Positions 576 to 47,755 of a stretch of DNA of 47,755 bases are shown in pieces. This DNA is from Candidatus Parcubacteria bacterium (GTDB lineage Bacteria > Patescibacteriota > Minisyncoccia > UBA9983): positions 1 through 47,755 of the forward strand of contig QZIU01000017.1 of the NCBI GenBank assembly GCA_003599625.1. The letters are read 5' to 3'. The notes under the pieces were generated by a model. It had not been told where the DNA came from. It searched no databases and saw only the letters and a list, made by a program, of their open reading frames with translations. Within the stretch, counting starts at the first letter, position 1, and each line of letters opens with the position of its first letter. A program made the position numbers and the translations under genes.

Positions 576-659
576 TGGGCAGGGAGGGATTCGAACCCCC
601 GAAGGCCATAGGCCGTCAGATTTACAGTCTGATGTAATTGACCACTCTACCACCTGCCC
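576..659 (-). tRNA. trnY: tRNA-Tyr (anticodon GTA)
   Basis: Read on the minus strand, the acceptor strands GGGCAGG and CCTGCCC pair, with A as discriminator base. The anticodon loop is CTGTAAA, and a long variable arm (CGGCCTATGGCCTTCG) marks a class II tRNA. The anticodon GTA identifies tyrosine. No CCA tail is encoded. Confidence 0.95.
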
Positions 660-702: not shown

Positions 703-714
703 CTTTACCTAATT

Positions 715-814
715 CCAACCTGCCTGCTGGCAGACAGGTCCAGCCCACGCCCGCAAACGCAAGCCCGGCAAGTTGGCTTGCGGGCAGGAGGCTGGGCTGA
801 GTTTGTCTACGCAC
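715..814. repeat. Palindromic repeat, intergenic copy of the tgt insertion
   Basis: This GC-rich palindrome lies directly after the clpB stop codon. It contains CCTGCCTG/CAGACAGG arms and an outer GCCCGC/GCGGGC pairing. It aligns over its whole length with 34639-34744, which is inside the tgt coding sequence. Some arm positions differ between the copies while pairing is kept within each. It could fold into a hairpin in the clpB mRNA tail. Confidence 0.75.
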
Positions 815-815
815 A

Positions 816-3512
816 TTAGCTGATCGCCGATGTCGCTTTAGAACCTCTGTTTGCCCTAGATTTGACTGCGACGGCGACGGAAAGCTCGTTATTGACCATA
901 TCCACCACAACCGCGTCTCCCTCCTTCGCTTTTTTGGCAATTATGAACTCGGCCACCCTGTTCAATATCTTACTTTGGATAAGCCTCTTGAGAGGCCTCG
1001 CCCCATAGTTGGGGTTATACCCTTCTTTGCCAAGATGAGAAAGGGCCTGATCCGAGATCTTGAGATTAATTCCCTTATTCAACAATCTCTTGACCGTCAG
1101 ATCGATCTGGATTTTGACAATATTTTTTATTTCCTCCGGGCTGAGCGGGTTGAAGATTATGATCTCATCGAGACGATTGAGGAATTCCGGCCTGAACCGA
1201 TTTTCCAAAGCCATTCTGATCTTGTGTCTCAGTTCGTCTCCCATTTCTTTTTGCTGCGCTTCGGCGCTGCCGGAAGTGACGAAACCTATTCTTTCCATCT
1301 GGCGCACATATTCCGAACCGACATTGGAGGTCATGATAAGAATCGCGTTTTTGAAGTTCACATGTCTGCCTTTTGCGTCCGTCAACCTGCCATTGTCGAG
1401 GATCTGGAGCATTATGTTGAAGATCTCAGGATGAGCTTTTTCTATCTCGTCAAAGAGAATAACGGAATATGGCCTGTGCCTGATAAGCTCGGTTAGCTGG
1501 CCCCCTTCCTCATGTCCGACATATCCGGGCGGAGAACCTATTATTTTTGAGACCGCGTGGCGCTCCATAAACTCCGACATATCCACTCGAATCAAAGCTT
1601 TCTCATCGTTAAACATAAATTCGGCCACCGCTTTGGCAAGCTCGGTCTTGCCCACGCCAGTCGGACCAAGGAACATGAACGACCCTATCGGCCTGTCTTC
1701 ATAGGATACTCCCGCGCGCGATCTTCTAACCGCGTTGGCGATCTTGGAAATAGCCTCATCTTGTCCCACGACGCGCTTCTTCAAACCTTCTTCCATCTTC
1801 ATCAGCTTCTCCATCTCGCCTTCAAGCATTTTAGCCACCGGTATTCCCGTCCATCGGGAAACAACGGCGGCGATATCCTCTTCCGTCACTTCTTCCCTTA
1901 GGATTCTGGACATTTGCTTTTTCTTCAGTCGGCCATCTTTGAGGCGAAGCTGTCTTTCGATCTCCGGTATTTTGCCGTAACGAATTTCGGCCACTTTGGA
2001 AAAGTCGGCCATTCTCTCGCTCGTGTCCGCTTCCAGCTTCAAAGTTTCGATCTCTTTTTTAAGCTTGCTGATAGCGTCTATGTTCTCTTTCTCGGTTTTC
2101 CATCTTACTTGGATTTCCGATATTTTTTCTTTCAGTTCGGCGATCTTCTCTTCTATCTCCTTGAGCCTTTTCTCTTTTGGCGCCGCTTGGCCAATATCAT
2201 TCCTGTCTTTTTCTTTCTTCAATACTTCCCGTTCGATCTCCAGTTTCATTATTTCTTTATTTGTTGATTCGAGCTCGTCTGGCATGCTGTCCAAGGTCAA
2301 CCTCAAAGCGGAGGCCGCCTCGTCTATAAGGTCAACGGCCTTATCCGGCAAAAATCTGTCCGCGATGTACCTGCTCGACAAATTAACGGCAGCTTTGATG
2401 GCATCATCCGTGATCTTTATACCATGATAAAGTTCGTATTTGTCGTTCAAGCCTCTCAATATCGCGACTGTGTCGTCGATGGAAGGTTCGTCCACATAGA
2501 TAGGCTGGAACCTTCTGGCAAAAGCGGGGTCCTTTTCTATATGCCTCTGGTATTCTTTGAGGGTCGTCGCGCCGATCGCCCGCAATTCCCCTCTGGCCAA
2601 AGCCGGTTTAAGCATGTTGGAAGCGTCGATCGCCCCTTCCGCCGCGCCAGCCCCCACGATAGTGTGTATCTCATCAATGAACAGAATCACCTTTCCCGCT
2701 GACTTCTCGACTTCTTTCATTAGGGCTTTGAATCTCTCTTCGAATTCTCCTCTGTATTTCGTGCCAGCGACAAGAGAGCCAACATCGAGAGATATAAGTT
2801 CTTTTTCTTTCAAAGAGGCCGGGACCTCGCCTTTGACGATCCTCTGGGCCAAACCTTCCGCGATGGCGGTCTTGCCCACGCCAGCTTCGCCGATAAGGAT
2901 CGGGTTGTTTTTTGTCCTCCTGTTCAATATCTGCATCAATCTTTTTATTTCGCTGTCTCTGCCGATCACCGGATCAAGCTTATCTTCCCTGGCCATCTGC
3001 GTAAGGTTTCTTGCGAATTTCTCGAAGACTCGCGACTTCTTGGGTTGTTCCGCTTCGGTGATGTTGGATTTTCTCATATCCGCAAGAATCCTCAAAACGG
3101 TTTCCTTATCAATCCTGAACCTGGCGAGAATATCCCTTGCCTTGGAAGGCACTTCGAGCATCGCCAAAAACAAATGCTCGGTTGACACATAATCGTCCCT
3201 CAACATCTGCGCGACGCGATGCGAGACTTCCAGGGCGCGGCTCAGTTCCGGAGTGATATACACCTGATAAGACGGGGCGACAACGGAAGATCGTTCGGCC
3301 TCGGACATGTTTTCGAAGACGGTGTCGCTGAGAAAATTGATATCTATCTCAAGCCTCTCGAGGATAGCTATTACCAGACTCTCTTCCTGCAAGATCAGCG
3401 CGGCCAAAAGATGCAGCGTGTCAACCTGGTTTTGACCTCTTTCTATAGTCAGCTCGTGAGCCTTTCTGACGGCCTCCTGAGCTTTAATTGTGAAATTTGA
3501 AAATGGTGGCAT
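816..3512 (-). CDS. clpB: ATP-dependent disaggregase ClpB
   Basis: This 898-residue Hsp100 chaperone would use ATP to thread aggregated proteins through a hexameric ring, normally together with DnaK. Domains in order: a Clp N-domain (about 1-150); a first AAA module with Walker A GEAGVGKT (208-215) and Walker [11 protein letters not shown] (275-284); a long charged coiled-coil middle domain (about 404-535), which distinguishes ClpB from ClpC and ClpA; a second AAA module with GPTGVGKT (616-623) and [10 protein letters not shown]; and the C-terminal small domain. The length is normal for ClpB. The start at 3512 gives the usual N-domain. No CIRCE operator is visible upstream, only an AT-rich palindrome. 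Confidence 0.97.
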
Positions 3513-5350: not shown

Positions 5351-5438
5351 TCAAGAAAAATCAGAAAACTTGATTTCCGAAAACTTTCCCTTGTCGTTTG
5401 GCTCTTGCAGGAAATCAAGGTTTTCTGATTTTTCTTGA
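5351..5438. repeat. Hairpin repeat, type 2, copy A (iscS-iscU gap)
   Basis: An outer perfect stem (5351-5368 with 5421-5438), a bulged G, and an inner 10-bp stem (CTTGATTTCC with GGAAATCAAG) enclose a 31-base loop. The inner stem and loop match 32007-32057 except for two loop bases. The outer stems of the two copies differ in sequence and length, yet each is self-complementary. It lies 12 bases beyond the iscS stop codon. Confidence 0.85.
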
Positions 5439-5449
5439 TTCACTCCTGA

Positions 5450-6862
5450 TCATGAAATTTTAACCGGCGAGAACATTCTCAGCTTTTCTATTATACCAGG
5501 CAAAACCTTCATCACATAATCTATGTTTTTCTTCGTCGTACTTCTGCCAAGACTGAATCGCATCGCCCCGTGCGCGTATGAGTGAGGCCTTCCGATCGCC
5601 ATCAAAACATGGGACGGCTCCAGGTTTTCCGAGGTGCAAGCCGATCCGGTGGAACAAGCCACCCCCGCCTCGTCCAGATACAATACAACCGACTCCCCTT
5701 CGACGTCAAGAATGGAAACATTCACATTGTTCGGGAGTCTTTCCGCCGAATGACCGTTCAAAACAACCTTAGGAATTTCCATAGTCAGTCTTCCTATAAA
5801 ATAATCCCTGAGCTTAGATAAACGAGTCGATTCTTTCTCCCTTTCCTCGTCTGCCAACCTTAAGGCCGCCGCCAGACCGACTATCCCGGCCACATTTTCC
5901 GTGCCGGGTCTTAATTTCTTCTCCTGCTCCCCGCCGTAAAGAATCGGCTGCAGCTTGACGCCGTCTTTTACAAACAAAACTCCGGTCCCTTTCGGCCCGT
6001 ATATTTTAGAGCCATTGATCGTCATCAGATCGACACCCAACTTCTGGATATTCAGATCGAGATAACCGGGAGCTTGACAGGCATCCGTATGGAAATACGG
6101 AAAAGCAGTATTAAGGCGAGGCAAAGCAAAATTTTGAGACGCGTCGGAGCCCGCCCCGCTTCGGGGAAGGGTAAAGCGCGAAAAATTTGGCTTTGCCTCG
6201 CCTGAAAATCCACCTTTTTTCTTAAAATTTCGAATTACCTTAGCAATCTCTCTGATCGGCTGTATCGCGCCAATCTCATTATTGGCATACATAATGGAAA
6301 CCAAGATCGTCTCCGGCCTTAACGCTCTTTTCACCTCTTCCGGATCAACGACCCCATCCTTGCCGACATCCAGATAAGTAACTTCAAAACCTTCTTTTTC
6401 CAATTTTTTGCAGGCGCTTAAAACGGCATGATGTTCGAATTTGGAGGTGATTATGTGAAGGCGAGGCAAGGGAAAATTTCTAGCTGCGGGTTTTAAGGAG
6501 GAATTGGGAAATTTGGCCTCCGTAGGATTTCCCTCTTCGTCAGTCCTTAAGGAGGTCAATTTCCCAATTCCTCCTGCTACAGCTCCCGCGATCCCCAAAA
6601 TCGCCAAGTTATCGCTCTCCGTTCCTCCGTTTGTAAAAATTATTTCCTTTGGTCGCGCGCCAAAAACACGGGCCACTTCAGCCCTCGCGCTCTCAATGGC
6701 GTTTCTGGCAACCAGCCCTTCCTTATATAAAGCGTTCGGGTTGCCGAAGTCTTTGAGCCAGTACGGCTCCATCGCCTTCCTCACCCGTTCATCCATCGGC
6801 GTCGCCGCCGCGTGATCCATATAAATTCGATTATTAACTTTTTTGACACTCCTTTTCCTCAT
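5450..6862 (-). CDS. iscS: Cysteine desulfurase IscS/NifS with two repeat-derived insertions
   Basis: This PLP enzyme takes sulfur from cysteine and hands it to IscU. Recognisable parts: the N-terminal YMDHAAATPMDERV, the FTNGGTESDNLAI segment, the PLP lysine in GSKIYGPKG (about residue 286), and the catalytic loop ACSTGSACTSE with Cys about 409. Homologues are usually near 390-400 residues; this one has about 470. The excess is two in-frame insertions, at about residues 94-134 and 215-256, both encoded by palindromic repeat DNA. The first shares the peptide LTSLRTDEEGNPTEA with GatB. I chose the ATG at 6862; a GTG at 6916, 6 bases after the gatB stop, is the alternative. Confidence 0.93.
   Translation of the reverse strand: MRKRSVKKVNNRIYMDHAAATPMDERVRKAMEPYWLKDFGNPNALYKEGLVARNAIESARAEVARVFGARPKEIIFTNGGTESDNLAILGIAGAVAGGIGKLTSLRTDEEGNPTEAKFPNSSLKPAARNFPLPRLHIITSKFEHHAVLSACKKLEKEGFEVTYLDVGKDGVVDPEEVKRALRPETILVSIMYANNEIGAIQPIREIAKVIRNFKKKGGFSGEAKPNFSRFTLPRSGAGSDASQNFALPRLNTAFPYFHTDACQAPGYLDLNIQKLGVDLMTINGSKIYGPKGTGVLFVKDGVKLQPILYGGEQEKKLRPGTENVAGIVGLAAALRLADEEREKESTRLSKLRDYFIGRLTMEIPKVVLNGHSAERLPNNVNVSILDVEGESVVLYLDEAGVACSTGSACTSENLEPSHVLMAIGRPHSYAHGAMRFSLGRSTTKKNIDYVMKVLPGIIEKLRMFSPVKIS
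6114..6203. repeat. Palindromic repeat inside iscS (second insertion)
   Basis: The outer arms AGGCGAGGCAAAGC (6114-6127) and GCTTTGCCTCGCCT (6190-6203) are perfectly complementary. Further AT pairs lie inside, and a CCCCG/CGGGG hairpin sits at the centre. The left half (to about 6152) is nearly identical to 7770-7809 in gatB and partly matches 6457-6480 in the first iscS insertion. It is read in frame as about 40 extra residues between the KVIRNFKKK helix and the HTDACQAPG strand of the desulfurase. Confidence 0.85.
6497..6574. repeat. Hairpin repeat, type 1, inside iscS (first insertion)
   Basis: The arms GGAGGAATTGGGAAATT (6497-6513) and its exact complement (6558-6574) form 17 bp. A bulged T follows, then a 7-bp stem (GGCCTCC with GGAGGTC), an AGGA/TCCT stem and a 16-base loop starting TTTCCCT. 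The 43-base core 6515-6557 is identical to 7829-7871 in gatB. It is translated on the minus strand in the same reading frame as the gatB copy. Confidence 0.9.
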
Positions 6863-6922: not shown

Positions 6923-8476
6923 TTATCCAGCAATTCTCTCCTTCAATACTTTCCTCAGCGCCTCCGGATTGGCGGAACCCTTGCTGATCTTCATGCCCTG
7001 CCCTACGAGAAATTGTAGGGCATTTTCTTTGCCTTTTTTGTAATCTTCCGCCACGGAGGGATTATTTTTTATAACCTCCTCAACGATATTTTTTATAAAA
7101 GAATCGTCCGAAGTTTGAGCCAAACCTTTTTCTTTAACAATCTCTTCCGGATCGCCTCCCTTCTCGAACATTATCTTCAGCACATCTTTCGCGCCCCTCG
7201 AAGAAATCTCGCCGCCAGCCGCCAACTTTGCCAATTTGGCGAACATTTCCGGATTTATCTTTAAATCATCGATCGGAATATTTTCTTTTGTCATTAAACC
7301 CGCGAGATCGGAAATTATATAATTTGCAGCCACTGAAACAATATCTTTTTGCAGATACTTGGCAGCGGATTCGAAAAAATTACCCAACTTAATATCTCCG
7401 ACAAAAATTTCTACTTGATCATCTTTAAGGCCGTATTCTTCTTTGAATCTTTTCCTTTTTCCCTCCGGCAATTCCGGCAAGATCAGATCGAAGCCAAGTT
7501 CAGAAACATAAAGCGGCGGCAGATCAGGGTCGGGAAAATATCGATAATCATGCGCCATCTCCTTTTCTCTCTGAGAAAAAGTCTTCTGCGCGCCCTCGTC
7601 CCAGCCTCTTGTTTCGTGCTTCACTTTTTCTCCCGCCTCGAGCAAAGCGGTTTGCCTTTTAATTTCATACTCAATCGCTCTTTCTACCGAACGGAACGAA
7701 TTAAGATTTTTAACTTCCACTTTCGTGCCAAGCTTTCCGGATTTAATATCAAGGTCAGGCTTAATATCAAGGTTAGGCAAAGTAAAATTTTGAGTCGCGT
7801 CGGAGCCCGAGGAAGCGGAGGAAAGTTCGGCCTCCGTAGGATTTCCCTCTTCGTCAGTCCTTAAGGAGGTCAACTTTCCTCCGCTTCCGACCACGGGAGC
7901 CAAACTGATATTCACTTCAATCCTCATCTGCCCTTTTTCCATATCGGCATCAGAAGCTCCCAAGTATCGCAAAACAAGCTGTAGCTCCTCGGCGAATCTT
8001 CTCGCTTCTTCTGCCGAATTTATACATGGCTCCGTCACAAGCTCCATCAAAGGCACTCCGGCCCGATTAAAATCCACCAAACTGGAGGATTTATCTTCGG
8101 CATGCGATAATTTTCCCGTATCTTCTTCCAGATGAACGCGCGTGATCTCTACCCCGCTCAATTCTCCGCCGCTCACCAAAGGAAATTTATACTGACTGAT
8201 CTGGTAACCTTTTGGTATATCCGGATAAAAATAATTCTTCCGGTCGAAGTGGCAATAATCCGCCAACTGCCCTCCGATCGCCTTGCCGACCAGCAAAACT
8301 TTTCTTACCGCTTCCTTATTCATAACCGGCAAAGTCCCCGGATGACCCATGCAAACGGGGCAAATATTCACATTGGGTCTCTTTTCTTCCGGATCGTTCA
8401 AAGAAGCGCAAAACATTTTTGTTTTGGTTTTAAGTTCGACGTGAATTTCCAAGCCAATTGTCGGTTTGTATTCCAT
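6923..8476 (-). CDS. gatB: Asp/Glu-tRNA(Asn/Gln) amidotransferase subunit B with repeat insertion
   Basis: GatB is the kinase-like tRNA-binding subunit of GatCAB, which converts Glu-tRNA(Gln) or Asp-tRNA(Asn) to the amide form. Family hallmarks are clear: the N-terminal IGLEIHVELKTKTKMFC, the zinc-site area CPVCMGHPGTLP, YFYPDIPKGYQISQY, and a C-terminal YqeY-like helical region ending LRKVLKERIAG. An insertion at about residues 198-246 separates NISLAP from KLGTKVEVKNLNSF, which are adjacent in homologues; it is encoded by palindromic repeat DNA (7770-7888). The other subunits, gatA and gatC, are not in the window. The stop lies just before iscS, suggesting co-transcription. Length is 517 residues against about 475 usually. 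Confidence 0.95.
   Translation of the reverse strand: MEYKPTIGLEIHVELKTKTKMFCASLNDPEEKRPNVNICPVCMGHPGTLPVMNKEAVRKVLLVGKAIGGQLADYCHFDRKNYFYPDIPKGYQISQYKFPLVSGGELSGVEITRVHLEEDTGKLSHAEDKSSSLVDFNRAGVPLMELVTEPCINSAEEARRFAEELQLVLRYLGASDADMEKGQMRIEVNISLAPVVGSGGKLTSLRTDEEGNPTEAELSSASSGSDATQNFTLPNLDIKPDLDIKSGKLGTKVEVKNLNSFRSVERAIEYEIKRQTALLEAGEKVKHETRGWDEGAQKTFSQREKEMAHDYRYFPDPDLPPLYVSELGFDLILPELPEGKRKRFKEEYGLKDDQVEIFVGDIKLGNFFESAAKYLQKDIVSVAANYIISDLAGLMTKENIPIDDLKINPEMFAKLAKLAAGGEISSRGAKDVLKIMFEKGGDPEEIVKEKGLAQTSDDSFIKNIVEEVIKNNPSVAEDYKKGKENALQFLVGQGMKISKGSANPEALRKVLKERIAG
7811..7888. repeat. Hairpin repeat, type 1, inside gatB
   Basis: The arms GGAAGCGGAGGAAAGTT (7811-7827) and its exact complement (7872-7888) form a perfect 17-bp stem. 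It has the same bulge position, inner stems and loop as the iscS copy. The 43-base core 7829-7871 is identical to that copy, while the arms differ at 7 of 17 positions, each compensated. A half-palindrome shared with iscS adjoins it at 7770-7809. Confidence 0.9.
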
Positions 8477-10894: not shown

Positions 10895-10958
10895 TGTGTA
10901 AAACTTTTCCAACCTGCCTGGTTGTCTTCAACCTGGAAGGTTGGTTGAGTTTTGCACA
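10895..10958. repeat. Hairpin repeat, type 4, copy 1
   Basis: The outer arms TGTGTAAAACT and AGTTTTGCACA pair over 11 bp. Inside lies the CCTGCCTGGTTG with CAACCTGGAAGG core also found at 17906-17958 and, inverted, at 10988-11028. The outer arms are unique to this copy. Confidence 0.75.
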
Positions 10959-10975
10959 GATATTTATAATTCTCG

Positions 10976-11045
10976 CCTGTGGATAACTTTGCCGACCAGC
11001 CAGGTTTGAAACCCAACCAGGCAGGTCTTCAAAGTTACCCACAGG
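10976..11045. repeat. Hairpin repeat, type 4, copy 2 (inverted orientation)
   Basis: The outer arms CCTGTGGATAACTTTG and CAAAGTTACCCACAGG pair with one mismatch. The inner part (GACCAGCCAGGTTTG, CAACCAGGCAGGTC) is the same core as copy 1 in reverse orientation. The two copies lie back to back between the lipoprotein terminator and uvrC. Confidence 0.75.
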
Positions 11046-11051
11046 CTCCCC

Positions 11052-11151
11052 TAGTCCCTTCTTAAGCCTAGTCCCTAGTCCCTTCTTAAGCCTAGTCCCT
11101 AGTCCCTAGTCCCTTCTTAAGCCTAGTCCCTAGTCCCTAGTCCCTTCTTAA
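11052..11151. repeat. Tandem repeats overlapping the uvrC 3' end
   Basis: TCCCTTCTTAAG-like units occur at 11055, 11079, 11110 and 11141 with 24, 31 and 31-base spacing. They are joined by one, two or three copies of a 7-base CTAGTCC module. The rightmost unit encodes the last residues of UvrC (LRRD) and its stop, so the array looks like repeated copying of the gene end. A related CTAGTCCC-rich stretch occurs at 33520-33607. Confidence 0.85.
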
Positions 11152-12306
11152 TTCCATCTTCTTCCTCCGTCTTCTGGCAAAGTTGGCAAAACGGTGGGCT
11201 TCGTCGCGGACCTTGAGCAAAGTTCCTTTTACCGCTTCGGCCAATTCCTTGAAAGACTTTGCCGCTCCGGCGGGGAAAACCAAATTATCTTTTTGGAGCT
11301 TGGAAATTCCCACGATCGGGATCCTTATCTTACTTTCTTCCAAAACCCTCGACACGAACAAAACTTGCGGCCTGCCGCCGTCTATCAGGATCAGATCGGG
11401 AGCTTGCCACTCAGGATGATTGAATCGTCTTTCGATCGTTTCCTTTAGCGCGGCAAGGTCGTCATTGGCCGGAGCTTCCTTGATTTTGAATAATCTATAC
11501 TCATCTTTATTTTCCCGTCCATCGGAAAAAACCACCATCGCGCCGAAAGTCTCTTTCCCGGCAAAATGCGATACGTCATATCCTTCAATCCGATTCAAAC
11601 CGCCCAAGAAACCATTCCCTTCTTCTTTTGACAGCAATGCCACATCCTGAATATGTTTGAGGCTTTCCGCCCTTTCCGGATTTTCCCTTACGAGCTTTTT
11701 AAGCAGGCGTTTCTTATCGCCTCGCAAAAACATCGCCAGATCCTTTATATTCTTTTGATAATCTTCCTTGCTTATCGCCCCTATGCAGATGCCAGGGCAA
11801 AGCCCGATCTGATAATGGAAGCATGGCTTGCCCTGATTCGGGACGCAAGTGCTGTACGGAAATATTCTTCTCGCTATCTTCAGAATTTCTTTTGCGATCC
11901 TCAAGCTTGTGAACGGGCCGAAAACTTCCGCCGAACCGTTGGAAAATTTGGAAAGTTCCTTACCCCTGACCACGATCGGCTTGGGATAGTCCTTCTTAGC
12001 GATCACGATATAAATGAAAGAGCGGTCATCTCTCTCCCTTACGTTATATTTGGGCCAATGCCTTTTGATCAGCTCCGCTTCCGATATGTATGATTCGAGA
12101 ACGGTGTCCGTAACTTGGTGTTTAATCTCACTGGCGGACTCGACCATTTCTTTTATTCTTGGGTCGATATCAAGACGAAAATAACTGGCCACCCTTCGTT
12201 TCAAAAAAGTCGCCCGGCCGACATAGAGGACTGAAGCCTTGTCGTCAAGAAACATGTATATACCAGGCTTGTTGGGTAATTTTTTAGCTTGATCAATAAT
12301 TCCCAT
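11137..12306 (-). CDS. uvrC: Excinuclease UvrC, short form lacking the UVR and HhH regions
   Basis: UvrC makes the two incisions in nucleotide excision repair. This 389-residue form keeps the GIY-YIG nuclease (residues 12-90: KPGIYMFLDDKASVLYVGRA), the Cys cluster CVPNQGKPCFHYQIGLCPGIC (about 154-174) and the RNase H-like half (EGYDVSHFAGKETFGAMVVF, LILIDGGRPQ). Usual UvrC is about 600 residues. Missing are the tandem helix-hairpin-helix domain at the C-terminus and, between LLKKL (about 205) and HIQDVALL (about 218), the roughly 20-residue UVR motif that binds UvrB. The stop codon lies inside a tandem repeat, so the C-terminus may have been lost by repeat invasion. It follows uvrA on the same strand. 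Confidence 0.92.
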   Translation of the reverse strand: MGIIDQAKKLPNKPGIYMFLDDKASVLYVGRATFLKRRVASYFRLDIDPRIKEMVESASEIKHQVTDTVLESYISEAELIKRHWPKYNVRERDDRSFIYIVIAKKDYPKPIVVRGKELSKFSNGSAEVFGPFTSLRIAKEILKIARRIFPYSTCVPNQGKPCFHYQIGLCPGICIGAISKEDYQKNIKDLAMFLRGDKKRLLKKLVRENPERAESLKHIQDVALLSKEEGNGFLGGLNRIEGYDVSHFAGKETFGAMVVFSDGRENKDEYRLFKIKEAPANDDLAALKETIERRFNHPEWQAPDLILIDGGRPQVLFVSRVLEESKIRIPIVGISKLQKDNLVFPAGAAKSFKELAEAVKGTLLKVRDEAHRFANFARRRRKKMELRRD

Positions 12307-17895: not shown

Positions 17896-17969
17896 AATTT
17901 TTGGCAGTCCTGCCTGGTTGCCTGCCTGCCGGCAGGCAGGTCTTCAACCTGGAAGGTCGGCCAAAAATT
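17896..17969. repeat. Hairpin repeat, type 4, copy 3
   Basis: The outer arms AATTTTTGGC and GCCAAAAATT are perfect complements. Inside are CCTGCCTGGTTG and TCTTCAACCTGGAAGGT, shared with 10895-10958, and a central CCTGCCTGCCGGCAGGCAGG palindrome. The outer arms differ from the other type 4 copies, but TTGGCAGTC with GGTCGGCCAA recurs at 36455-36505. Confidence 0.8.
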
Positions 17970-28776: not shown

Positions 28777-29059
28777 ATTTTTCCAGCAAAAAATTATCCG
28801 CTATTTAATAAAAACTAGAGAGAAATTCTTATTTTCTGCTATATTTTTTAAGCCTCCCAGAAAGGGATAGGTAACATAGAAAATTCAAAACTCAAAATTC
28901 CAACTGCAAAACTGCCTCCCGCCTGCCTGCCGGCAAGCGGGGAAAGGCAGGCTTAAAACCACTCAAACTTATAAGAAAATGGCATATTTATCGGTATTTC
29001 TTTGCTTGATTTTTTAGTTTTTTAATCAGAGCTTTGCGTTCCGAATTTTTACCTTGAGT
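28777..29059. other. Non-coding gap upstream of the exopolysaccharide operon
   Basis: No reading frame with support is seen. The gap holds AT-rich sequence likely to contain the operon promoter, AACTCAAAA words like those between uvrA and uvrC, and a GC hairpin at about 28922-28953 (GCCTGCCTGCCGGC, then GGCAGGC) related to the type 4 repeats. The leader of the operon would therefore be short and the repeats lie upstream of it. Confidence 0.5.
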
Positions 29060-31988: not shown

Positions 31989-32076
31989 TCGGAAAAATCA
32001 GAAAAACTTGATTTCCGAAAACTTTCCCTCGCCGTTTGGCTCTTGCAGGAAATCAAGGTTTTTCTGATTTTTCCGA
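31989..32076. repeat. Hairpin repeat, type 2, copy B
   Basis: An outer perfect stem (31989-32006 with 32059-32076), a bulged G and the 10-bp CTTGATTTCC/GGAAATCAAG stem enclose a 31-base loop. That loop differs from 5379-5409 at only two positions. The outer arms contain GG/CC and five A/T pairs where copy A has AAG/CTT and four, so both changes are compensated. Confidence 0.85.
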
Positions 32077-33841: not shown

Positions 33842-35095
33842 TCAAAATTTGTAGTGTTTCTCCAGTTTTTTTAAATTTGATCTTTTTCCTGAATCAATCG
33901 CTTCCCTTATTTTCCCAAATAATTTTTTGTAAAAATGGATATTGTGAATCGTGGCCAGACGCTGAGCTTCGGGAATATTTTCTTTGAACAAAATTCTCAG
34001 ATCCTTTCTCTTTATTCCCGATGAGCAGACAAAACATCCGCATCCTTTGTCCAACGCTTTTTTGTCTTTTTCAAAAACTCCTCTTTTGATATCTAACCTC
34101 CCTTCCATGGAGTAAACTGCTCCATGCCTCGCCTCTCTCGTCGGGATAACGCAATCGAAAGTGTCTATTCCCTTGCCGACCCCGATGAAGATATCCTTGA
34201 TCGCTCCAATGCCAAGCAAATGACGCGGTTTGTTTTCCGGCAAGCCGCTCAATGCCCAACCTATCACTTCTTCCATTTGCTTTTCCCCGAATGATCCGCC
34301 TATGCCGAACCCGTCAAAAGGCAAAGCGCCGATAAAAGAGGAGCTTTCTTTCCTTAGGTTTTCAAAAATTCCCCCCTGGACGATGCCATAAAGCATCTGA
34401 CCGTTTTTCTTTTTCGCTTTAAGGCATTCTTTTGCCCAGCTGTGAGTTTTCTTCAAGGATTTTTTATTGTATTCGTAATCGTGAAGCGGAGAGGTGCATT
34501 CGTCGAAAGCAAAAATGATATCCGCCCCCAAGTCTTCCTGAATCTTGATCGATTTTCTTGGCGTAAGTTCGAATTTCTTGCCGTCGTAAGTAAAAATAAC
34601 CCTGTCGGATAGGATTTTTACCGGATTCCGATCCTTTTCCAACCTGCCTGTTGGCAGGCAGGCCCGGACCCCGCCCGCCACGCAAGTTGTCTTGCTAACA
34701 TCGCGGGCAGGGGGTCGGGTGGATTTGTCCACAGGTTGTACGCAGGCGGGATTTTTTGCCGTTTTATCGACTTTGCCGATGTTGTGCTTCTTGCCCCAAC
34801 CCAGACTGAAGACTTGAAAACCGCCGCTGTCGGTCATAATCGGATTTTTGAGCGGAAACATTTTATGGAGGCCGCCAGCCTTTTTTATCTCCTTATGTTT
34901 CCCTGTCACAAAAAGATGAAAAGTGTTGGAAATGGTCAATTCCGGCGCCAAGCTGAAATAGTCCTCTTCTTTCAAGGACTTGATAAAGCCATGCGTCGCG
35001 ACGAACGCGAAATTGGGAGTTTCGACATTGCCGTGAGCTGTCTTGATAATGCCGGTACGAGCGAGGCCGAGTTTGTTTTTAATGAGGAAAGACAT
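33842..35095 (-). CDS. tgt: tRNA-guanine transglycosylase with a repeat-derived insertion
   Basis: Tgt exchanges the wobble guanine of Asp, Asn, His and Tyr tRNAs for a queuine precursor. Catalytic text is intact: MTDSGGFQVFSLG with the first Asp, FGIGGSFGEKQMEEV, and FDCVIPTREARHG with the nucleophilic Asp. The zinc site is CGCFVC followed by a later His (ATIHNIHFY). An insertion of about 45 residues after NIGKVDK (from KNPACVQP to RLEKDRNP) is encoded by a palindromic repeat at 34639-34744 that also occurs after clpB. The ATG at 35095 (MSFLIKNKLG) is preferred; another lies 15 bases upstream. The product is 417 residues against about 375 usually. Confidence 0.94.
   Translation of the reverse strand: MSFLIKNKLGLARTGIIKTAHGNVETPNFAFVATHGFIKSLKEEDYFSLAPELTISNTFHLFVTGKHKEIKKAGGLHKMFPLKNPIMTDSGGFQVFSLGWGKKHNIGKVDKTAKNPACVQPVDKSTRPPARDVSKTTCVAGGVRACLPTGRLEKDRNPVKILSDRVIFTYDGKKFELTPRKSIKIQEDLGADIIFAFDECTSPLHDYEYNKKSLKKTHSWAKECLKAKKKNGQMLYGIVQGGIFENLRKESSSFIGALPFDGFGIGGSFGEKQMEEVIGWALSGLPENKPRHLLGIGAIKDIFIGVGKGIDTFDCVIPTREARHGAVYSMEGRLDIKRGVFEKDKKALDKGCGCFVCSSGIKRKDLRILFKENIPEAQRLATIHNIHFYKKLFGKIREAIDSGKRSNLKKLEKHYKF
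34639..34744. repeat. Palindromic repeat inside tgt
   Basis: The element has outer CAACCTG/CAGGTTG arms, an inner CCTGCCTGTTGGCAGGCAGG palindrome and GCCCGC/GCGGGC pairing. It aligns over its whole length with 715-814 downstream of clpB. In tgt it is read in frame with no stop codon, giving a Cys-, Pro- and Arg-rich stretch between two conserved parts of the enzyme. Confidence 0.85.
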
Positions 35096-35107
35096 TGTAA
35101 TAATTTT

Positions 35108-35142
35108 CAATTTTCAATAACCAATTTTCAATGAATTTTCAA
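35108..35142. repeat. Dispersed AT-rich repeat before tgt (copy 1)
   Basis: These 35 bases, made of CAATTTTCAATAACC followed by CAATTTTCAATGAATTTTCAA-like text, are identical to 38250-38284 before dnaG. In both places the repeat continues into self-complementary AATTTTCAATTGAAAATT text. Both copies lie just upstream of a minus-strand start codon. Confidence 0.85.
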
Positions 35143-35253
35143 TTGAAAATTGAATCATTTAATCTTTGATTGCAAAATTGCAAAATTGCAAAATTGAATA
35201 TTAGACCTGGAAAAATTTTAACCCTGTCATCATTTTACGCCAAACAAAGTGTC

Positions 35254-38238: not shown

Positions 38239-38249
38239 AAGCTAATTAT

Positions 38250-38284
38250 CAATTTTCAATAACCAATTTTCAATGAATTTTCAA
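38250..38284. repeat. Dispersed AT-rich repeat before dnaG (copy 2)
   Basis: Identical over 35 bases to 35108-35142. It fills much of the 114-base gap between rpoC and dnaG and is followed by further TTGAAAATT and AATTTTCAA words that can pair. Confidence 0.85.
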
Positions 38285-38352
38285 ATTTTTCAATTGAAAA
38301 TTTAAATTATTGAACATTGATTGAAAATTGTAAAATTGAAAAATTGAAAATT

Positions 38353-47453: not shown

Positions 47454-47755
47454 GAAAATATTTATCTTTAAAAACTTTACAAAATAATACTAAAATAATA
47501 ATTCGACACTTAAGCTTGCGCTTAGTTACCTTTATTGTACTCCGGTTGTTGTAGGGTGCAAATTTACACCTTGTGCATAACTTCCGCAAATTCCAACCCT
47601 GCGGCCTGCCGGTAGGCAGGATTGGCTGAACGACCAACGGATATCGCGTCGTTTGGCTGTCAAAGCAAAATAGAAATGTCATAGTTCGAGCAATTTAGAA
47701 ATGTCATACTTGACTGATTTCTAATTTGATTTTTTAATAAATTCCGACCGTTTGA
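47454..47755. other. Non-coding right end with hairpin remnant
   Basis: No supported gene is seen in these 302 bases. They hold the likely promoter of the repeat-protein operon (AT-rich, 47454-47510), and a type 4-like hairpin at about 47593-47625 with CCTGCC/GGCAGG and CCAA/TTGG pairings. Beyond 47671 lie two direct repeats described separately. Confidence 0.5.
47671..47755. mobile_element. Possible insertion sequence end at the window edge
   Basis: TAGAAATGTCATA occurs twice, at 47671 and 47696, 25 bases apart. On the other strand the words read TATGACATTTCTA. Closely spaced subterminal repeats of this kind are typical of transposase-binding ends in some insertion sequences (IS481-like elements come to mind from memory, unverified). 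No transposase is in the window; it would lie to the right. Confidence 0.3.

Follow-up and report, generated by a model that had tools for sequence, protein, structure and literature searches.

In-frame palindromic elements in tgt and other genes of a Parcubacterium

Introduction

How does a palindromic DNA segment come to lie, with its reading frame open, inside a gene for a tRNA-modifying enzyme, and is it retained there because it serves that enzyme? In-frame insertion of palindromes is best known from the Rickettsiales, with scattered intragenic REPs elsewhere. The question is raised here by tgt, located in the window (the whole 47,755-bp stretch of DNA that was analyzed), whose host is a Parcubacteria-type Patescibacterium. 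We consider it probable (roughly 85%) that non-autonomous palindromes resembling Rickettsia palindromic elements (RPEs) are present in this host, and that a dispersed copy entered tgt, such copies being kept in frame and in loops. The features are listed in Table 1.

Table 1. Palindromic elements of the window and the genes that contain or adjoin them.
Feature	Position	Strand	Remarks
tRNA-Tyr	576-659		
Intergenic homologue of the tgt element	713-814	.	between clpB and tRNA-Tyr
20-bp core palindrome, intergenic	719-738	.	CCTGCCTGCTGGCAGACAGG
clpB	816-3512	-	stop at 816
Further insert in the cysteine desulfurase gene	6113-6199	-	GEAKPNFSRF...GSDASQNFALPRL (predicted translation); long near-perfect arms
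Second family in the cysteine desulfurase gene	6458-6565	-	in frame; KLTSLRTDEEGNPTEAKFPNSS
Second family in gatB	7769-7882	-	in frame; GGKLTSLRTDEEGNPTEAELSSASSGSDATQNF
Related composite palindromes without core	10895-11043	.	AAAACTTTTCCAACCTGCC...; GTGGATAACTTTG...CAAAGTTACCCAC
Composite palindrome	17900-17961	.	perfect core at 17921-17940
Core-like palindrome	28918-28945	.	CCTGCCTGCCGGCAAGCGGG
tgt, tRNA-guanine(34) transglycosylase	33842-35110	-	422 codons, frame intact; TIGR00430, PF01702
Palindromic element inside tgt	34637-34744	-	in frame; predicted translation CVQPVDKSTRPPARDVSKTTCVAGGVRACLPTGRL
20-bp core palindrome in tgt	34643-34662	.	CCTGCCTGTTGGCAGGCAGG
Core-like palindrome	47601-47620	.	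GCGGCCTGCCGGTAGGCAGG

The tgt gene and its insert

In a profile search the product of the tgt ORF scored 354.7 bits with TIGR00430 (cut-off 306.75) and also matched PF01702. Residues D94, D319, C357, C359, C362 and H389, which we take to have catalytic and zinc roles by reference to the Tgt of Z. mobilis, are conserved across 55 Tgts. By its score above the cut-off, these residues and its Tgt fold (see below), the protein is a member of the Tgt family. The most closely related Tgts are those of Parcubacteria, e.g. GW2011_GWA2_40_143, and the identity to the Tgts of G001, the single same-genus genome of the comparison set, and of the family member G007 is 72%.

The segment 34639-34744 comprises 35 codons (CVQPVDKSTRPPARDVSKTTCVAGGVRACLPTGRL), three of them for Cys, rather than the approximately 45 residues with two Cys given in the earlier note. 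Compared with the nearest Tgts, the protein is longer here by about 32 residues net (95 versus 63 between DSGGFQ and GADII). The open frame and the intact catalytic core suggest that the segment is translated. Its RNA fold is more stable than those of shuffled sequences (z -3.8).

It is extremely improbable that the insert is an artefact of misassembly or a pseudogene. The assembly is a draft (35 contigs, 4.5% contamination), but the frame shows no interruption across its 422 codons, the catalytic residues are conserved, and comparable insertions are present in numerous assemblies of independent origin.

An intergenic copy after clpB

When the tgt element was searched against the entire 906-kb genome, a sole other significant match was obtained, at 713-763 (51 nt at 84%, E 9.4e-9). 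The end-to-end alignment with 713-814 contains 76 identities in 111 columns, and neither its local score (60; maximum 32 in 2000 dinucleotide shuffles) nor its global score (105; maximum 66) was reached by any of the shuffles. The alignment with the palindrome after clpB (715-814), on which the earlier note had staked its interpretation, is therefore significant. The 3′ halves of the two copies, taken by themselves, are only marginally similar (score reached by 2/2000 shuffles), and the homology of the window copies thus derives mainly from the first ~51 nt and the common palindrome. The RNA fold of 713-814 also surpasses that of shuffled sequences (z -2.9). A terminator scan of this segment detected no terminator-like site, Rfam showed no known RNA family across the elements, and the phage records gave no match.

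These observations bear on the possibility that the loop expanded by replication slippage or local repair, with chance palindromes and no dispersal. Template switching can perfect inverted repeats, and many Tgts have a hypervariable loop at this place. However, the homology to a distant intergenic copy, together with identical 20-mers in about 100 genomes and an exact 21-bp gain in a Xer gene (both described below), argues against this explanation, which we consider very unlikely and, for the tgt element, already largely refuted. According to the preferred reading, the tgt segment would be a copy of a dispersed, usually intergenic palindromic element that entered the gene within the lineage of this Parcubacterium, probably by transposition. 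It may have survived there because, given its length and frame, it extends a surface loop already tolerant of inserts by codons without a stop.

The Tgt loop as a landing site

We recovered 127 distinct Tgts, nearly all of the same class, and measured the loop in 123 of them. The insert occupies the loop after TDSGGFQVFSLG, whose length is highly variable; that of the window protein ranks fifth. The 35-residue insert was absent from the other 126 Tgts, as expected of the acquisition proposed in the earlier note, and the loop proved to be hypervariable. AlphaFold2, run with 55 relatives, gave a mean pLDDT of 88.7 and a confident enzyme core, which superposes on solved Tgts with TM-scores of 0.80-0.94; the only stretches with pLDDT <50 were residues 113-115 and 118-156. 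As modelled, the insert fills a variable, disordered loop on a confident Tgt core.

An exact empty site for the tgt element was not found, the loop of the nearest relatives being occupied by a different palindrome. In G007 the loop peptide LLSTSNVDSS is encoded by TACTACTATCGAC-ATCGAAC-GTCGATAGTAGTA, a perfect palindrome unrelated to that of the window. The G007 palindrome (L022/L051), with TATCGACATCGAACGTCGATA, is decayed in the genus-mate G001. Other Tgt loops contain (i) a 72-nt palindrome (L207), (ii) a CTGTGGATAACCGACTT..AAGTCGGTTATCCACAG palindrome (L135), with a relative in L136, (iii) a CCCCG..CGGGG palindrome (L024), (iv) another palindrome (L157), (v) a RQAQGRPEQVEGR repeat, presumably translated (L215), and (vi) a CCTGCTGGCAGCCTGCC-type sequence of its own (L182). 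Unrelated palindromes occupy the same Tgt loop in other Parcubacteria. Strong inverted repeats (score of 12 or more) were present in 6/123 loops versus 1/369 control windows of equal length taken from other parts of these ORFs (Fisher p 0.001, an indicative value, since the sequences are related to one another).

The repeated occupation of this loop in many lineages could also mean that the insert is kept for a function in Tgt or its mRNA, e.g. as a Cys-bearing regulatory loop or a translation-tuning RNA hairpin; its three Cys (the corresponding loop lacks Cys in five family members) and its stable RNA fold (z -3.8) are compatible with such a role. This explanation appears improbable, since the sequence, length and Cys content of the loop are not conserved, different palindromes are present in different lineages, the same elements are also found in unrelated proteins and intergenic DNA, and the loop is predicted to be disordered. 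Most likely, the extra peptide is carried along as a passenger that is disordered and neutral.

Distribution of the 20-bp core palindrome

With up to 3 mismatches allowed, the genome contains the core (CCTGCCTGNNGGCAGNCAGG) at about 30 places; the reversed control matched nowhere. The exact 20-bp core (CCTGCCTGCCGGCAGGCAGG) is present in 62/188 genomes of the class and in 65/287 genomes drawn across the phylum (reversed control 0 in both sets), i.e. identical 20-mers occur in about 100 genomes of the two sets. The 20-mer is stop-free in every reading frame. The variation of copies between genomes is consistent with present-day mobility.

Many core copies are nested in larger palindromes with the arms GTGGATAACTTTG...CAAAGTTATCCAC. 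Judged by eye, GTGGACAAATCC...CCGACC of the tgt copy appears to be one such arm in diverged form. Two matches within long ORFs (C10:22104 and C20:4550) contain 2-3 mismatches and were regarded as coincidental.

Further repeats were noticed in the window. A tandem repeat (CCCTAGTCCCTTCTTAAG, 11049-11169) adjoins palindrome copies in an intergenic gap, and two 60-nt intergenic palindromes (AAAACTTGATTTCC...GGAAATCAAGGTTTT; 5365-5424 and 32003-32062), 26.6 kb apart, are 97% identical. A near-identical AT-rich repeat (TTTTCAATAACCAATTTTCAATGAATTTTCAA) is located in two intergenic gaps (35101-35176 and 38243-38327), and a related stretch lies in frame within a 644-codon ORF of L108.

Some core copies are associated with tRNA sequences. 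In L009 (G000:C17, 534-925) the D-arm region of a truncated tRNA-Leu copy contains the 20-bp core. A GIY-YIG endonuclease-like frame (MYYVYAIKSLNRNYLYVGLTNNPERRINQHN) follows this copy directly, and an intact tRNA-Leu is located downstream. At five other sites (L018 at 1501; L240, L241, L248 and L267 near 1501) the core abuts an incomplete tRNA-like sequence, with an intact Glu, Thr, Lys, Ala or Leu tRNA gene nearby, as if tRNA fragments and palindrome had been duplicated together.

Palindromes in frame in other genes

The core is in frame in the Xer recombinase gene of this genome (L011), and here an exact empty site was identified. The genus-mate G001 has GGAGAA/TTCC (G001 and G007: ...GGTTTCCGGAGAA/TT...), and the window genome has GGAGAA/CCTGCCTGCCGGCAGGCAGGT/TTCC, an exact gain of 21 bp, i.e. 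7 residues. This gain is nested in an older palindromic insert, predicted to be translated, which is common to the window genome, G001 and G007 and is absent from the rest of the family.

In this genome the core also lies in frame in the 644-codon open frame of L108, which has a signal-like segment at its start, and elsewhere in the RecG, IleRS and PIMT genes of other Parcubacteria. In a sample drawn nearly entirely from other genomes, 5/31 exact cores were situated deep in long open frames, those of RecG, IleRS and PIMT among them. RecG was rejected as a second exact empty/filled pair, since its loop length varies by other changes; of its sisters, G104 has a degenerate core and G038 a different palindrome at that place. 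The IleRS frame of one Parcubacterium (L265, 813-3020) contains, besides a palindrome insert, a match to a histidine-phosphatase (phosphoglycerate mutase-like) domain at approximately residues 522-698.

A second palindrome family, with the peptide (K)xTSLRTxxxGNxTEA (TSLRTDEEGNPTEA), is present in the cysteine desulfurase and GatB of the window and in Xer, and the same reading frame is used throughout in these three unrelated proteins. Its window copies fold well beyond chance, and the further insert in the cysteine desulfurase gene has a z of -5.5. The insertions in the cysteine desulfurase and GatB genes are probably older, because G007 has the second family in two adjacent frames of similar size, arranged as in the window. 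The entry of palindromes into genes with the frame preserved, as claimed in the earlier note, therefore extends from tgt to Xer (exact 21-bp pair), RecG, IleRS, PIMT, cysteine desulfurase and GatB.

We tentatively propose, at somewhat less than even odds, that the 20-bp stop-free palindrome ranks among the smallest mobile units of DNA and, together with other palindromes, forms a phylum-wide source of disordered loops, inserting as a frame-preserving 21-bp unit into genes, tRNA copies and palindromes across the Patescibacteria.

Comparison with known palindromic elements

RPEs (Ogata et al. 2000/2002) are described in two sources (PMC2229807, PMC10969869) as palindromes of ~105-146 bp forming several families per genome; their copies are intergenic or in frame in conserved genes, where they are tolerated as extra peptides, and the host genome is reduced. 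The elements of the window share with them (i) palindromic copies of 102-108 bp with long stem-loops (z -3.8 and -2.9), (ii) the occurrence of one family both between genes (713-814) and in frame (34637-34744, tgt), (iii) the presence of more than one family in a genome, (iv) a presumed tolerance of the extra peptides and (v) a reduced host genome. They differ in that (i) the host is not Rickettsia, its nearest tgt relatives being Parcubacteria, (ii) the recurrent unit is a 20-bp core (21-bp gain), also nested in larger palindromes, and (iii) the loop of one enzyme is reused by several lineages. The comparison with RPEs drawn in the earlier note thus holds as an analogy of pattern, drawn from published descriptions. 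Protein-coding palindromic repeats have also been reported from Wolbachia (Ogata et al. 2005, as cited in PMC2229807); likened by description, these are protein-coding palindromes outside Rickettsia, although of an alphaproteobacterial host.

PMC3733652 describes REPs as 20-40 bp palindromes forming dimers and composites, some of them within the ORFs of DNA repair genes, and the phyla mentioned in the sections consulted do not include Patescibacteria. The size, palindromy and nested composites of the present elements, a single detected Y1_Tnp gene in the genome, at C2:1364, and the intragenic REPs documented in that source would be in agreement with classical REPs moved by a RAYT (Y1) transposase. 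This origin is nevertheless unlikely. In GTAG REPs the RAYT gene has the repeats on its flanks. For the present element neither a GTAG/CGTC tag nor an adjacent RAYT was detected: GTAG, CTAC and CGTC occurred once each in the 80 flanks of 40 exact cores, and the core palindrome was absent from the 3.1 kb around the Y1_Tnp gene. MITEs are likewise short, non-autonomous, palindromic and dispersed (PMC10969869), but in the present case no cognate transposase ends and no target duplication were found, direct repeats flanking the 40 exact core copies being at chance level. With tag, target duplication and a core beside the Y1 gene all lacking, the data point to no particular mobilizer. The element, which works like an RPE, is not filed as an RPE, a tagged REP or a MITE.

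Conclusions

The preferred reading may be generalized as follows. Non-autonomous palindromes of several unrelated kinds, among them a 20-bp core insertable as a 21-bp unit, would spread in the genomes of Patescibacteria and accumulate in intergenic DNA; in genes, selection against frameshifts and core disruptions would act as a filter, and only in-frame copies in loops would persist.

The novelty of this observation is limited, because intragenic REPs have previously been reported in other phyla (PMC3733652). As far as the literature searched shows (open-licence papers only, which contained no report on palindromic elements of Patescibacteria or Parcubacteria), three points are new: the occurrence in this phylum, the 21-bp unit, and the finding that a single protein loop has been used repeatedly. 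The palindromes of multiple lineages in the Tgt loop and the 21-bp pair in Xer point to a recurrent process in reduced genomes. They provide an aligned data set for studying which sites of proteins accept additional sequence, by what agents such repeats are moved, and how streamlined genomes come to retain selfish DNA. They also carry a warning: CLPAGRQ or TSLRTDEEGNPTEA peptides in protein predictions from CPR genomes would represent translated repeats, not conserved domains.
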